IMG/VR virus record: IMGVR_UViG_3300046507_000282
Span: 29,888 to 93,887 of that record
From: a virus
Reading direction: 5' to 3' (one strand)
Length of the DNA stretch: 64,000 nt
In this document: positions 29,871 through 59,273 of the stretch, piece after piece
Numbering within the stretch: position 1 is the first letter of the stretch
Layout of the letters: every line of letters begins with the position of its first letter
Position numbers and translations under genes: made by a program
The notes under the pieces: model-generated
What the model was told of the DNA's origin: nothing
Databases searched by the model: none
What the model saw: the letters and a program-made list of their open reading frames with translations, nothing else

Positions 29871-29918
29871 ATCGATTCCTTTACCGATGGTTTTAAGAGA
29901 CGGTCTAGCCGACCGAAT

Positions 29919-52864: not shown

Positions 52865-54352
52865 TTAGCCCAGCGAGCCATTCGCGCCGAACGGCTGCCA
52901 TGCCTGGCTGTTCGTCACGATGTTCTTCACGAGCACGTGCTGATTGCGCTTCGTCATCCGCAGGTAACCGCAAATCATCTGCAGCCACGGGATGATCGGC
53001 GACATGACCGCTGCCATCGGAATCTTCATCATCGGCAAGTACTGACGCCAGGCGATGGCGTGGTCCGTCTCCGACAGATTCAGGATGTACGCGTTGGTCG
53101 AACCAGGGATATCCTGGTTGTAGTCCACGTACGTCGTGGTCGCGTTGGCCGGGCCAGCGTACGGGATGCGGACCATTTCACGCAGGTCGGTCAATGCGCT
53201 CGTACCGTTCAAGCGACCACGGTAGATCACGTAACCAGTTTCCGAGCGCGAAGCCGATGCGCCGATGGCGATGGAGGCTGCGCCGCCGGCGACGATTGCT
53301 GCTTGTGCCGACACGGTGATCAGCGATTCGCCGCCTTGAGCGATACCCGTCACGCCCCAGTAGTAGTCGCCGGCCTGGCCTGCCGCGAACAGCGAGCCCG
53401 GCTGAACAGCTACCGGCGTAACGACGACGGTTTGCGGCGCGTAGTTGTTCGCAGCAGCAATCGGTTGGAACCACGGCGTACGAACTTGGAACGGAACCTT
53501 CAGGCGCTCGTCGCGAATGAAAACGTCCGTGTTCGTGTTGATCTTGCCGTACGAGGTCTGGATGCCGGTCACTGCCGTACCGCGAACCGTGGTGCTCGCC
53601 TGGCCATCCTGAATCACGCGGAATGCCGGATCGAGGTCGGTGTTCAGGTCGGTCTGCACGCTCGGCGGCAGATAGATATCCGTCGCGCGACCGAAGTTGC
53701 CGAAGCCGAAAATCACTTCAGCGGCAGCAGCAATCGGGTCCACGCTCGTCAGTGCCGCGCCGCGCATGTCGATCACGTGGTCGGTCGAGCCGAGCGATTC
53801 GATCTGCACTGCGATACCGTTGAACGACAGCGGCAGAACTGCGTCGTTGCCTTCGAAGAGACCGACTTCGATGTCCGTCAGCAATTGCTTCGTGCCGTTG
53901 GTCGTCTCGATGGTCACCGCGTCAACGATGTTGTTCTGTTGCTGCAGCACGACCGGGATGGAACGGTACGTGGTCATGTACTTGACCTGACCGACCATGC
54001 GCTGGTATTGACCAGCGGTTTGCATCGCGTTGCCGTCCTGGGTGTTGAACGTCGAACCGAAAAAGCCGCCGATGCTGTGCTGTTCCGTCCATTCGTCAAG
54101 CACAGCCGTCGCGCGGGGCTTCGGCAGCTTGTTGAACAGGGCGAAGTGACGGTTTTCCTGCACGGTAGCCTGCAGCGCCAAGTCGAGCGACTGGATGCGC
54201 AGAGCGGAACCGCCAGTAAGCGTCGAAACGTCGGTGCCGTAACCGGCTTCGAGCGGCACTTCGAGCGCCTTTTGCAGCGCGGCCAGATCGCCCTGGCTCA
54301 TCGAGCCGGTCGTCGTCGCGCCATTCGGGTTGAAACTTTGCAGAAAATTCAT
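52865..54352 (-). CDS. Major capsid protein, 495 aa
   Basis: Position after scaffold and protease genes, size and the HK97-type ending (AAVMSPIIPWLQMICGYL) make it the major capsid protein. Residues about 320-405 look like an inserted Ig-like or sugar-binding domain (YYWGVTGIAQGGESLI, TTYVDYNQ). Residues 34-60 share 20 of 27 positions with the prohead protease end. Not all HK97 motifs can be confirmed by eye. Confidence 0.88.
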   Translation of the reverse strand: MNFLQSFNPNGATTTGSMSQGDLAALQKALEVPLEAGYGTDVSTLTGGSALRIQSLDLALQATVQENRHFALFNKLPKPRATAVLDEWTEQHSIGGFFGSTFNTQDGNAMQTAGQYQRMVGQVKYMTTYRSIPVVLQQQNNIVDAVTIETTNGTKQLLTDIEVGLFEGNDAVLPLSFNGIAVQIESLGSTDHVIDMRGAALTSVDPIAAAAEVIFGFGNFGRATDIYLPPSVQTDLNTDLDPAFRVIQDGQASTTVRGTAVTGIQTSYGKINTNTDVFIRDERLKVPFQVRTPWFQPIAAANNYAPQTVVVTPVAVQPGSLFAAGQAGDYYWGVTGIAQGGESLITVSAQAAIVAGGAASIAIGASASRSETGYVIYRGRLNGTSALTDLREMVRIPYAGPANATTTYVDYNQDIPGSTNAYILNLSETDHAIAWRQYLPMMKIPMAAVMSPIIPWLQMICGYLRMTKRNQHVLVKNIVTNSQAWQPFGANGSLG

Positions 54353-54387
54353 GTTTTACGGGCTCCGAAATTTGCCGTGGTTGATGC

Positions 54388-55077
54388 TTACTTGCTGAAA
54401 AGGCGGTCCAGAATTGCCTGTTCGGGTTGAACGCCCATGTTCAGAGCGCTCTGGATACGGACAGCTTCCGTTGCCGTAATTTGGTGAGCCGCGAGCGCGC
54501 CTTCAGCCTTCGCCAGAATTTCCGACGGGGTGTGCTTCACTTCGGCAGCGCCGCCGCCATTCAGGTTCGGACGTGCGCCGAGCGTGACGCTGCGAACGCC
54601 GCGGCCTTGGTTGCCGATGCCGCCGAGTGCCTTGGTCAGCAACGAATTCGACTTCTGAAGATCGTCGCCGCGCTGCGCCAGCTTGAGCACGTCTTCGCGG
54701 GTCTGCTTCAAGCCTTCCGACAGGTCGCCGATCACGCCCATTGCGTCGCCGAGCGCCTTCGTCAGTTCTTCGACTTGCGCGCCAGCGGCGGCCTTGACGG
54801 TTTCGACTTCGCCGACCAGGCACTTCAGCATTTCGGTCGCGTCTTGCGCTTCCATTTCCGTGCCGTCTTCGAGCACCAGTTTGAACGACTTGACGAGCGG
54901 CGCGCCATCGGTGATGTCTTCCTCGCCTTCGCCGGCAGCGCCGGTAGCGGCAACGTCAGCAGCGCCAGCGGCGGCTGCCACGGCAGCGTTGCCCTTTGCA
55001 TCCACCTGAGCGGCAGACAGCGACTTGGCGAGGGTTGCCTGAGCGGCGATTGCCTCTTTCAGTTCTGCAAAATTCAT
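54388..55077 (-). CDS. Scaffold-like coiled-coil protein, 229 aa
   Basis: It lies between the protease and the capsid gene, and is almost entirely helical with acidic and Ala-rich coiled coils (LVGEVETVKAAAGAQVEEL, then KLAQRGDDLQKSNSLL). This is the composition and place of an internal scaffold. A capsid decoration role is the alternative. Confidence 0.8.
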   Translation of the reverse strand: MNFAELKEAIAAQATLAKSLSAAQVDAKGNAAVAAAAGAADVAATGAAGEGEEDITDGAPLVKSFKLVLEDGTEMEAQDATEMLKCLVGEVETVKAAAGAQVEELTKALGDAMGVIGDLSEGLKQTREDVLKLAQRGDDLQKSNSLLTKALGGIGNQGRGVRSVTLGARPNLNGGGAAEVKHTPSEILAKAEGALAAHQITATEAVRIQSALNMGVQPEQAILDRLFSK

Positions 55078-55091
55078 CTTTAAAGCTCCGT

Positions 55092-55970
55092 TTAACCGCG
55101 TTTAAGATCATCCAAAAACCGCTTGACATAGTCAGCAGCGACGGTCTTCGAAAGACCGAAACGCGCGCCGGCCTCCCTGACCATTTCCTTCAAACTACCC
55201 ATTGAGATTTCCTCGTTGCCGATGGCGTTGGCGAGGTCATCCCGAAAATTCCAGTACGAATAAAGCGCGTCATCGAGCGACTGTTCGCGGATGGCAGTGC
55301 CGCCCGTGAGCGTCGCGCTATCGGTGCCGTAGCCAGCCTGAAGCGACTTCAAAACGTCTAGGCCATACGCACCCCACGACTTTGCGAGCGGGCCGAATGG
55401 CACGGTCGAAGCGGGGCGAAGGTTGGCGTTGACGGGAGTCGCCGAGAAGGCGAGGTTTGACCAGCGGACGCGCTCAATAACCGGGACGCGGCTCTTTGAT
55501 GCGGGGTCGATCTGCATGCTCTTTTCGAGCACAGCGCCCCCGACCGACGTGAACCACTTCTTCGGCGGATTGATTTCGGTGAGCGAGGACCAAAACAGAT
55601 TGGCCTTCTCAGCCATCTTTCCGCTACCCTGATAAATCTCGCCCTTCACGAACGTTTCCGACTTCTGAATGCGCACGTCAACCGGCGTGCCGATCTCATA
55701 CGATTCGTGGTTCGGAATGCCTGCGCGTGCGCCGATCTGCGTGTAGTGCTCCAAGTCGAGATTGCCGAAGCGTTGGAAGTACTCCATGGAGTTTTCCAAC
55801 GCCTTGCACAGCACAATCTCGCCCTGCTGATCGACGGACTCATTCGATGCTTCGACGTACACATACCGGCGATCCCCTTCGGTTGCGGGGGTCGCTTTCA
55901 GCATCGGCGAAATGCTCACGAATGACGGCAGCGCGTCTAGTTGAGCTTGGTCGAGTACGTCGTTTTCCAT
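55092..55970 (-). CDS. Prohead protease-like protein with capsid-like C-terminal peptide, 292 aa
   Basis: Residues 35-135 follow the prohead protease plan: YVYVEASNESVDQQGEIV, then His75 (DLEHYTQIG) and a downstream Ser (LFWSSLTE). Start ATG at 55970 is the first after the upstream gene. The segment 210-236 (QAGYGTD, TLTGG, QSLD) is nearly identical to residues 35-60 of the capsid protein. It may target the protease into the shell or be a shared cleavage site. Confidence 0.78.
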   Translation of the reverse strand: MENDVLDQAQLDALPSFVSISPMLKATPATEGDRRYVYVEASNESVDQQGEIVLCKALENSMEYFQRFGNLDLEHYTQIGARAGIPNHESYEIGTPVDVRIQKSETFVKGEIYQGSGKMAEKANLFWSSLTEINPPKKWFTSVGGAVLEKSMQIDPASKSRVPVIERVRWSNLAFSATPVNANLRPASTVPFGPLAKSWGAYGLDVLKSLQAGYGTDSATLTGGTAIREQSLDDALYSYWNFRDDLANAIGNEEISMGSLKEMVREAGARFGLSKTVAADYVKRFLDDLKRG

Positions 55971-57198: not shown

Positions 57199-57514
57199 TC
57201 TTTTTCGGCTTTTCGGTTTGGTGGCCGGTCACTTCATGCCAGTGGACGCGGTGATCGCGCCCGGTCGAGTCCTGGCACGTGCAGCCGTCTTTGCCGGTTG
57301 ACGTGACCTTCCCTTCGCCAGAGAACTCGCCAGCCTTGAACGAAATGTGGTGGCCCTTCTTCACGGTCTGTTCGTTCTTTACGCCGCCCGGGTTGTGCTC
57401 GGCGAGGCGCGCGAGCAAATCCTTGAATGGGCCCTTCGTCGGCTCGCCCTTCTGCGCAGGCTTCTTCTTCGGGTCGGGCTTTTTCAGCGCCTTGATAAAG
57501 ATCGGGGTCGTCAT
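57185..57514 (-). CDS. Hypothetical basic protein, 109 aa
   Basis: Lys-rich N-terminus (KKPDPKKKPAQKGEPTKG) followed by a beta-rich SH3-like core (KKGHHISFKAGEFSGEGKVT) and Cys pair (CTCQ). Its start overlaps the portal gene's stop by 4 bases. Possible minor head protein. Confidence 0.72.
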   Translation of the reverse strand: MTTPIFIKALKKPDPKKKPAQKGEPTKGPFKDLLARLAEHNPGGVKNEQTVKKGHHISFKAGEFSGEGKVTSTGKDGCTCQDSTGRDHRVHWHEVTGHQTEKPKKNAGK

Positions 57515-59247
57515 CCCATTAGCTCCTCAAAATTGAACACGGGCGGCAGGTTGAACGCCTTGCCGAAATCGACGGGCGCGCTGCCGTCGCCAAAATTCAT
57601 GTCGTCGCCAGGCACCGCGTCGTCGGCGGCGTCCGGAGTCGGATCGGTTTTCCCGTCGCCGCTCGCGCCCGCACCGCCCTCGCCGCCCTCGCCACCTTCG
57701 CCCTGCTGTTGGCCGATGCCGTTGATGACCATCCACGGGTTGATAAGCGACTGGTTGACCGGCGCATCGCCGAGCGGGCCGGGCATCGCCTGCTTGCCTT
57801 CTTCTGCGCGGATTTCGTTGACCGTCGAGACCAGCTTGCGCATCTCGTTTTTGATAGCGCGGTCTTCAGGATCGAGGCCGGTCCAGCGGAAGCAGAAGTT
57901 CGGCGAGAACTCGGCGACGACGAAGTCAGTGAGGGTGTTTTCGTAGGCAGCCAGCAGCGGGCGCAGGCCCGAGTCCTTCGAGGCGGCCAGCTTCTCGCCG
58001 GTATCGCCGCCAGACAGCGGGCTAGTGTTGCCGCCAGAGAATGAGTCGAAATTGATCTCGCTCGGCGACATGCCGTAAATCGCGCAAATGAGCGACGTGA
58101 GAAACGTCATCCATTTCGAGAAGTACATTTCATTGAATTCGACGCCGAACTTCTCAAACTGAGCCTTCGATTCCTGGTCCTTCGACACCATGACCGGCAG
58201 GTTCCACGCGTTCTGAACGCCCTTCACCATCGAATTCCAATAGCGCCGGAATGCCTTGATGTCGTTGTCGTCGTACTGTCCGGACAGGTGCAGCATCCCC
58301 TTCGGAATCGAGTTCGAATCGAAGCCCTTGATGTTGTACGTCATCGCGTTGATGTATCCGGTCACGACGCGAATCAGTAGCTCGGTCTCGGAAATGCCGT
58401 AGCCGGCAGCCGTCACGTCAGTGCGCGGGTTCCGGTTTTCATAGACCAGGTCGTCGTGGGTGTAGGCGGTCGTAATCATGCCCTCCACAACCTGCAGGGC
58501 GAAGATCGCGTCGTCGCCGTCGTAGCCGTCTTCGGTGCAAAGGCGGATCGTCGCGCCGTCCACGGCGTAGAAGCCGTCGAGCCCCTTGTCTTTGTTGTTT
58601 TTCCACTCAAGCTCGATGGGCGCGGAGTCCATAACCAGCGAGTCGCGCACGCTCTTGCTCATGAACTGCGCGAACGAATCGCGCTTGAGCATCTTGCGTT
58701 TGCGCGGCGTGAATTCCCAGCCGCAGTTCGAAATGAAGCGGTTGAGCAACGCAATCGACTTACCTTCGGCAGCCGTCAACTGGTGGCCGCGGTCGATATG
58801 ACGGATTTCGAAGCCGGGCATGTCGTTGCCCTTCTCGGCAACGCGGCAGAAGCGCTGCACCTGGCGCTGGCGGGTCATGATCACCGCATTGAGCACCGGG
58901 GTTTGCTGCACCATCATGCGCAGGCCGTCGAACGGGATGCCGCCCGGACGGTCCCACCAGTCGCCGTTCACGTTGATCTGCCACTGATCGATGATTACCG
59001 ACTTCATCCCCGGCTTATTCAGCTTGTTGTTGCGGGACGGGAACGGCACGACGTTGTTGTGGATGTTCTTCAGAAGGTCGTCTTCGAGCTGCGCCTCTGC
59101 AATCGACATGATCGCGCGCACCGTGTCATTCGGCATCAGGTCAGACGCCGTCGGCATATGCGATTTCTGAAGCTCAGCAAGCGCTTCCGTGCGCTCGGCT
59201 TCAGGTGCGCGCGGGTCAAATGCGACGCTTGCGGCTTGACTGGTCAT
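57511..59247 (-). CDS. Portal protein, 578 aa
   Basis: Segments WWDRPGGIPFDGLRMMVQQTP, FISNCGWEFTPRKRKMLKRD and SPSEINFDSFSGGNTSP are characteristic of phage portal proteins, including the crown and stem region. ATG at 59247 is preceded by GGGGAAG (5 bases); a TTG four codons upstream is less likely. The acidic Gly-rich end (GEGGEGGEGGAG) precedes a short conserved tail. It forms the dodecameric DNA channel. Confidence 0.92.
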   Translation of the reverse strand: MTSQAASVAFDPRAPEAERTEALAELQKSHMPTASDLMPNDTVRAIMSIAEAQLEDDLLKNIHNNVVPFPSRNNKLNKPGMKSVIIDQWQINVNGDWWDRPGGIPFDGLRMMVQQTPVLNAVIMTRQRQVQRFCRVAEKGNDMPGFEIRHIDRGHQLTAAEGKSIALLNRFISNCGWEFTPRKRKMLKRDSFAQFMSKSVRDSLVMDSAPIELEWKNNKDKGLDGFYAVDGATIRLCTEDGYDGDDAIFALQVVEGMITTAYTHDDLVYENRNPRTDVTAAGYGISETELLIRVVTGYINAMTYNIKGFDSNSIPKGMLHLSGQYDDNDIKAFRRYWNSMVKGVQNAWNLPVMVSKDQESKAQFEKFGVEFNEMYFSKWMTFLTSLICAIYGMSPSEINFDSFSGGNTSPLSGGDTGEKLAASKDSGLRPLLAAYENTLTDFVVAEFSPNFCFRWTGLDPEDRAIKNEMRKLVSTVNEIRAEEGKQAMPGPLGDAPVNQSLINPWMVINGIGQQQGEGGEGGEGGAGASGDGKTDPTPDAADDAVPGDDMNFGDGSAPVDFGKAFNLPPVFNFEELMG

Positions 59248-59273
59248 TGGCTTCCCCAAAATTTACCCAATGG

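Follow-up and report, generated by a model that had tools for sequence, protein, structure and literature searches.

In phage lambda (C/Nu3) and the herpesviruses (UL26/UL26.5), the head protease shares sequence with another head protein, the scaffold, which co-assembles the protease. The placement of proteases inside proheads is known in few phages. The HK97 protease is encapsidated in the prohead in about 60 copies (PMC12749128). In T4, the proteins IPI-III and Alt are brought into the prohead by a short, cleavable peptide, the capsid targeting sequence (PMC7411985). The prohead protease gp245 of the giant phage SPN3US removes its own C-terminal propeptide, for which a role in targeting to the prohead has been proposed (PMC7411985, PMC10052503). 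Here we describe the head module of a viral DNA stretch of 64,000 nucleotides (the window; positions 29,888 to 93,887 of IMG/VR record IMGVR_UViG_3300046507_000282), in which the C-terminal tail of the prohead protease and the N-terminal arm (N-arm) of the major capsid protein (MCP) share a 27-residue segment. The best explanation, which we regard as somewhat more probable than its contraries, is that the protease carries a cleavable shell-docking tail that mimics the MCP N-arm, followed by self-release.

A preliminary description of this locus had reported that residues 34-60 of the MCP and 210-236 of the protease agree at 20 of 27 positions, and pairwise alignment recovered the match at exactly these residues, without gaps. 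The pair gave a BLASTP E value of 9.5e-9 and a Smith-Waterman score of 97, whereas the highest score among 500 shuffles of the protease was 59 (0/500 reached the observed value), so a chance match was rejected. At the DNA level the two copies are 68% identical and 16 of their 26 differences lie at third codon positions, which indicates conservation of the protein rather than a fresh duplication of DNA. When the protease was used as a tblastn query against the whole 93,887-base virus record, only the protease itself and the MCP copy (query residues 208-238) were returned, and no third gene with the segment was found there or in related loci. Four additional matches in related loci proved to be truncated MCPs at contig ends rather than a third head protein. 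The HK97, T4 and lambda protease/MCP pairs gave nothing above shuffles in the same test.

The distribution of the segment was assessed in 284 loci with both genes, comprising 191 distinct protease/MCP pairs, which were found with profiles built without the segment in either protein. The segment is common to 188 of the 191 pairs, in each case exceeding nearly all or all of 200 shuffles, so the possibility that it is private to the window phage, which the preliminary description had named as the result that would count against a shared role, was rejected. Carriers include 90-kb myophages of Gram-negative bacteria, Thermus phages and Herelleviridae (SPO1, Twort/K-like, Listeria, Enterococcus and Lactobacillus phage types). 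In Thermus phage Cumys the segment is far from that of other phages yet nearly the same in the phage's own two proteins (TAGDPHALD..GLTGVPAIRRESLE and TAGDPHALD..GLSGVPAIRLESLE). Comparison with PHROG showed that phrog_752 (major head protein) matches 36 of 99 proteases and phrog_1028 (protease) matches 24 of 84 MCPs; four proteases with a significant phrog_752 match were inspected singly, and the matched stretch was the segment in all four. These cross-matches independently confirm the spread of the segment. Matches of proteases to phrog_617, also a "major head protein", fall in the catalytic domain and were discarded as a second cross-match.

The two copies change together. Across 88 representatives, the protease and MCP segments of one genome are 66% identical, compared with 46% for protease-MCP, 45% for protease-protease and 51% for MCP-MCP comparisons between phages. 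Own pairs were more similar than swapped partners in 92-93% of phage pairs, an excess matched by 0/5000 permutations, and this also held within the 90-kb clade and within the set of Herelleviridae and other phages. Shuffling residues inside each segment removed most of the excess, with a small remainder attributable to composition. Independent drift after one old duplication predicts no such closeness of own pairs, so the copies co-evolve, and their joint change suggests that the enzyme uses its copy to plug into the growing shell. The segment is also the most conserved stretch of both proteins: in the 90-kb clade, protease conservation is 58% in the segment, 54% in the catalytic domain, 42% in the linker and 39% in the C-terminal part, and MCP conservation is 69% in the segment and 53% in the body.

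A partial gene duplication is the simplest origin of the two copies, and recombination (gene conversion) might have kept them alike without the segment serving the protease in any way. Identical codons are slightly in excess, which fits this idea: identical residues share a codon in 779 of 1531 cases where codon usage predicts 716, and old gene conversion may contribute slightly to the likeness. This value is nevertheless near the usage expectation, which implies selection on the protein sequence, and with the third-position differences in the window it gives no support to recent DNA duplication or conversion. Retention of the segment across Herelleviridae, Thermus phages and Gram-negative phages, as the best conserved part of the protease between poorly conserved flanks, also speaks against conversion as the whole explanation, which we consider very improbable.

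The position of the segment in the mature shell is indicated by known capsids. The first residue of the shared unit is a Lys that hardly varies (present in 85 of 88 representative proteases and 86 of 88 MCPs), and the next is in most cases Ala or Ser. The deposited Kayvirus mature MCP chains (9row, 9rox and 9roz) lack the first 24 residues, and their first residue is the Ser of the K-S pair that opens the segment. Residue counts, rather than coordinates, for one chain of the SPO1 capsid model give 445 residues, or 468 minus 23, matching a cut between K23 and A24. Together, these data indicate that what the protease copies is the beginning of the mature MCP N-arm. The SPO1 count implies that, in the mature SPO1 shell, the segment probably has an ordered structure. 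In the single-chain models its order is poor, with predicted local distance difference test (pLDDT) values of about 45-52 per 10-residue block in the MCP and about 50-60 in the protease, as would be expected for an arm that becomes ordered upon binding. Between the Lys at which cleavage is predicted and the segment, the window MCP, like the MCPs most closely related to it (L027 and L068), contains extra residues (K28-ALEVP-LEAGYG, 54235-54271), which occur neither in the protease copy nor in other MCPs.

The same K-A/S pairs are a feature of the scaffold-like protein encoded between the protease and the MCP. Among 86 scaffold homologues, 40.5% of Lys residues precede Ala or Ser, compared with a background of 18.9%, while the MCP body shows no enrichment (14.4% versus 17.1%); this contrast fits a rule of cleavage between Lys and Ala or Ser. 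The scaffold-like proteins of the group carry many such motifs (LAKS, LIKS, MTKS), which are likely a map of protease cleavage sites. The tail of the protease beyond its catalytic domain has two sites, K197-S and K208-S, that fit the rule deduced from the MCP and scaffold.

Because the segment directly follows a K-A/S site in both proteins, it might instead help the protease itself to recognise its substrates, as an exosite ligand located beyond the scissile Lys on the downstream side. The MCP would then carry the segment as a substrate, and in the protease it would act as a self-cleavage substrate or an autoinhibitory plug. Binding to one protease groove would likewise make the copies co-evolve, and a self-cleaved C-terminal propeptide is known in prohead proteases (PMC10052503). 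However, the scaffold-like protein, for all its K-A/S motifs, proved to be without the segment, so cleavage as such does not need it. A protease subsite extending over about 30 residues on the P' side would also be a long one, the model of the protease does not confidently set the segment against the catalytic domain, and the order that the SPO1 count suggests for the segment in the mature shell would not be required of a site serving cleavage alone. We therefore consider this explanation unlikely. Of the possibilities offered in the preliminary description (a docking, cleavage or scaffold-binding peptide, or a partial duplication by which the protease co-assembles with the shell), docking or co-assembly is favoured, as the segment follows a predicted K-A/S site in both proteins and starts the mature N-arm, whereas a mere cleavage-recognition peptide fits less well, given a scaffold that has the motif without the segment.

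Under the shell-docking explanation, in which we infer docking, the binding partner, self-cleavage and release, the protease tail would have three parts. One or two K-S/A cleavage sites would come first, then a stretch that copies the initial ~30 residues of the mature MCP N-arm, then a small helical domain. As the prohead is assembled, this N-arm copy would bind the site used by the MCP's own N-arm, most likely on a neighbouring MCP subunit and possibly with the scaffold, and so would place the protease inside the shell. The active protease would then cut the MCP between K28 and A29, shred the scaffold at its many K-A/S sites, and cut its own tail after K197, K208 or both. Loss of the tail would leave the catalytic domain untethered and free to leave before DNA packaging. 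The protease of a Listeria phage of the Herelleviridae was detected in virions, where the part that remains was not specified, and this fits the docking explanation (PMC12282133).

Alternatively, the segment could bind the scaffold (or the portal) rather than the shell, as a shared targeting peptide that brings the MCP and the protease to the scaffold core. In T4, internal proteins attach to the prohead core through short capsid targeting sequences (PMC7411985). All inspected loci have the scaffold gene between the protease and MCP genes, and the co-evolution and conservation data fit this explanation too. Set against this, the segment remains on the mature MCP after the scaffold is lost, and its conservation in the MCP exceeds that of the shell body, which is a better fit to a lasting shell contact. 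We judge scaffold targeting to be distinctly unlikely, a little more so than substrate recognition.

Several observations weigh against docking by the N-arm copy. The protease copy is not recognisable in two loci (L049 and L050), in Bacteroides phage DAC16 (L013) or in a gut contig (L025), all of which keep the MCP copy, and it is weak in L292-L296 and in Thermus phage Lalka27b. L049 and L050 resemble a natural deletion experiment, as their protease has lost the motif while keeping the K-S site, the tail and the C-terminal helices, and the MCP copy is intact. In DAC16 and L025 the MCP is of the SPO1 type, its N-arm has diverged, and the protease carries no copy, a state that may predate the duplication or follow its loss. 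The copy is thus replaceable in some lineages and not universally needed, so the suggestion that the segment might be dispensable in the protease, also named beforehand as a point that would tell against its role, holds for a few lineages. Recruitment could also depend on the C-terminal helical domain of the protease. This domain is less conserved than the segment. In Lalka27b (L008:9216-9585), an annotated clustered regularly interspaced short palindromic repeats (CRISPR) array and a TnpB-family gene adjoin the head genes.

The features of the head module are collected in Table 1. The predicted MCP model has the SPO1 capsid 9vel as its best fold match (Foldseek E 6e-32), and the two are also related in sequence (phmmer E 7e-22), which makes the window MCP a homologue of the SPO1 gp6.1/Kayvirus type with the HK97 fold. 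In the protease, H75 and S142 are invariant among 99 sequences, and the fold resembles herpesvirus pUL26N and T4 gp21 at modest template modelling (TM) scores of about 0.3-0.5; by its fold and conserved His and Ser it is an assemblin-like prohead serine protease, while no sequence homologue of it was found in the PDB. The gene order in the window is that of SPO1, with two small genes between the portal and protease genes. The nearest relatives, among them PHB04, Touem01, ST4 and Mecenats66, are myophages of 86-96 kb that infect Gram-negative bacteria, and these hosts and sizes, together with the 93,887-base record, place the phage outside the Herelleviridae, which have genomes of ~125-170 kb and Bacillota hosts. 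Head genes of the 90-kb group also occur inside large bacterial contigs (L303, L305, L307 and L308, from Neoroseomonas, Geminicoccus, Rhodovarius and Microvirga), some of which may be prophages.

Table 1. Head module features in the window; coordinates are window positions, and (-) marks the complementary strand
Feature	Position	Details
Portal gene	57511-59259	Order portal - protease - scaffold-like - MCP
Prohead protease gene, 292 aa, ATG at 55970	55092..55970 (-)	phrog_1028 head maturation protease, E 1.6e-32; catalytic domain ~ residues 30-196
Second predicted self-cleavage site, K197-S198, at the end of the catalytic domain	55377..55382 (-)	K197 invariant in 99 proteases
Predicted self-cleavage site, K208-S209, directly upstream of the segment	55344..55349 (-)	Lys in 85/88 representative proteases
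Shared segment, protease copy, residues 210-236 = LQAGYGTDSATLTGGTAIREQSLDDAL	55263..55343 (-)	BLASTP to MCP; present in 188/191 relatives
Three-helix C-terminal domain of the protease, residues 239-291	55098..55256 (-)	Helices 239-251, 260-271 and 275-291; pLDDT about 86-96
Scaffold-like protein gene, 229 aa, K-A/S-rich	54388..55077 (-)	Between protease and MCP; SPO1 equivalent annotated as head scaffolding protein
MCP gene, 495 aa, HK97 fold	52865..54352 (-)	phrog_752 major head protein, E 7.4e-76; Foldseek to SPO1 capsid 9vel
Predicted MCP maturation site, K28-A29	54266..54271 (-)	K28 invariant in 84 MCPs; Kayvirus chains start at equivalent K24-S25
Shared segment, MCP copy, residues 34-60 = LEAGYGTDVSTLTGGSALRIQSLDLAL	54173..54253 (-)	20/27 identity to protease 210-236

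It is possible, at a likelihood we place slightly short of even, that proteases throughout this very large lineage of phages gain entry to the prohead by imitating a capsid subunit: a cleavable copy of the mature N-arm would occupy an N-arm site of the lattice, and the protease would free itself by a cut that follows the K-A/S rule of MCP cleavage. If so, the lattice itself would set the copy number and timing of the protease. The segment is a concrete, short element, open to genetic tests, in a lineage to which SPO1 and therapy phages (K-like and Listeria) belong, and solved capsids in this lineage allow its site to be mapped. The strong co-evolution of the copies further provides a quick, sequence-based way to test other phages for protease-capsid docking.

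Among known systems, the head module of SPO1 and the Herelleviridae (gp3.2 protease, gp3.3 scaffold and gp6.1 MCP) is the same in gene order, has homologous proteins and carries the segment in both protease and MCP. HK97 (gp4/gp5) is similar in having its protease inside the prohead, from which it is lost after cleavage, and in its HK97-fold MCP, but the two proteins share no segment above chance and the MCP itself includes the scaffold as one of its domains. The T4 targeting sequence is N-terminal and binds the core, whereas the segment of the window protease is C-terminal and copies the mature MCP; T4 gp21 has no match to gp23 or gp24. In lambda and the herpesviruses the shared part is the scaffold, in contrast to the capsid protein's own N-arm in the window, and lambda C compared with E gave nothing. 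The window protease resembles SPN3US gp245 in having an extension at its C-terminal end, beyond the catalytic domain, and the sites in this extension fit the rule of the window phage's own protease; the SPN3US precedent would, by analogy, support a cleavable targeting tail. SPN3US gp245 differs in cleaving after AXE rather than Lys, and PMC7411985 and PMC10052503 do not describe it as copying the N-arm of its own MCP. The literature searched, with subscription papers outside its scope, held no description of the SPO1-type shared segment or of any capsid-protein copy in a prohead protease. We provisionally regard such a copy as a new form of the known targeting propeptide, drawn from an unexpected source.
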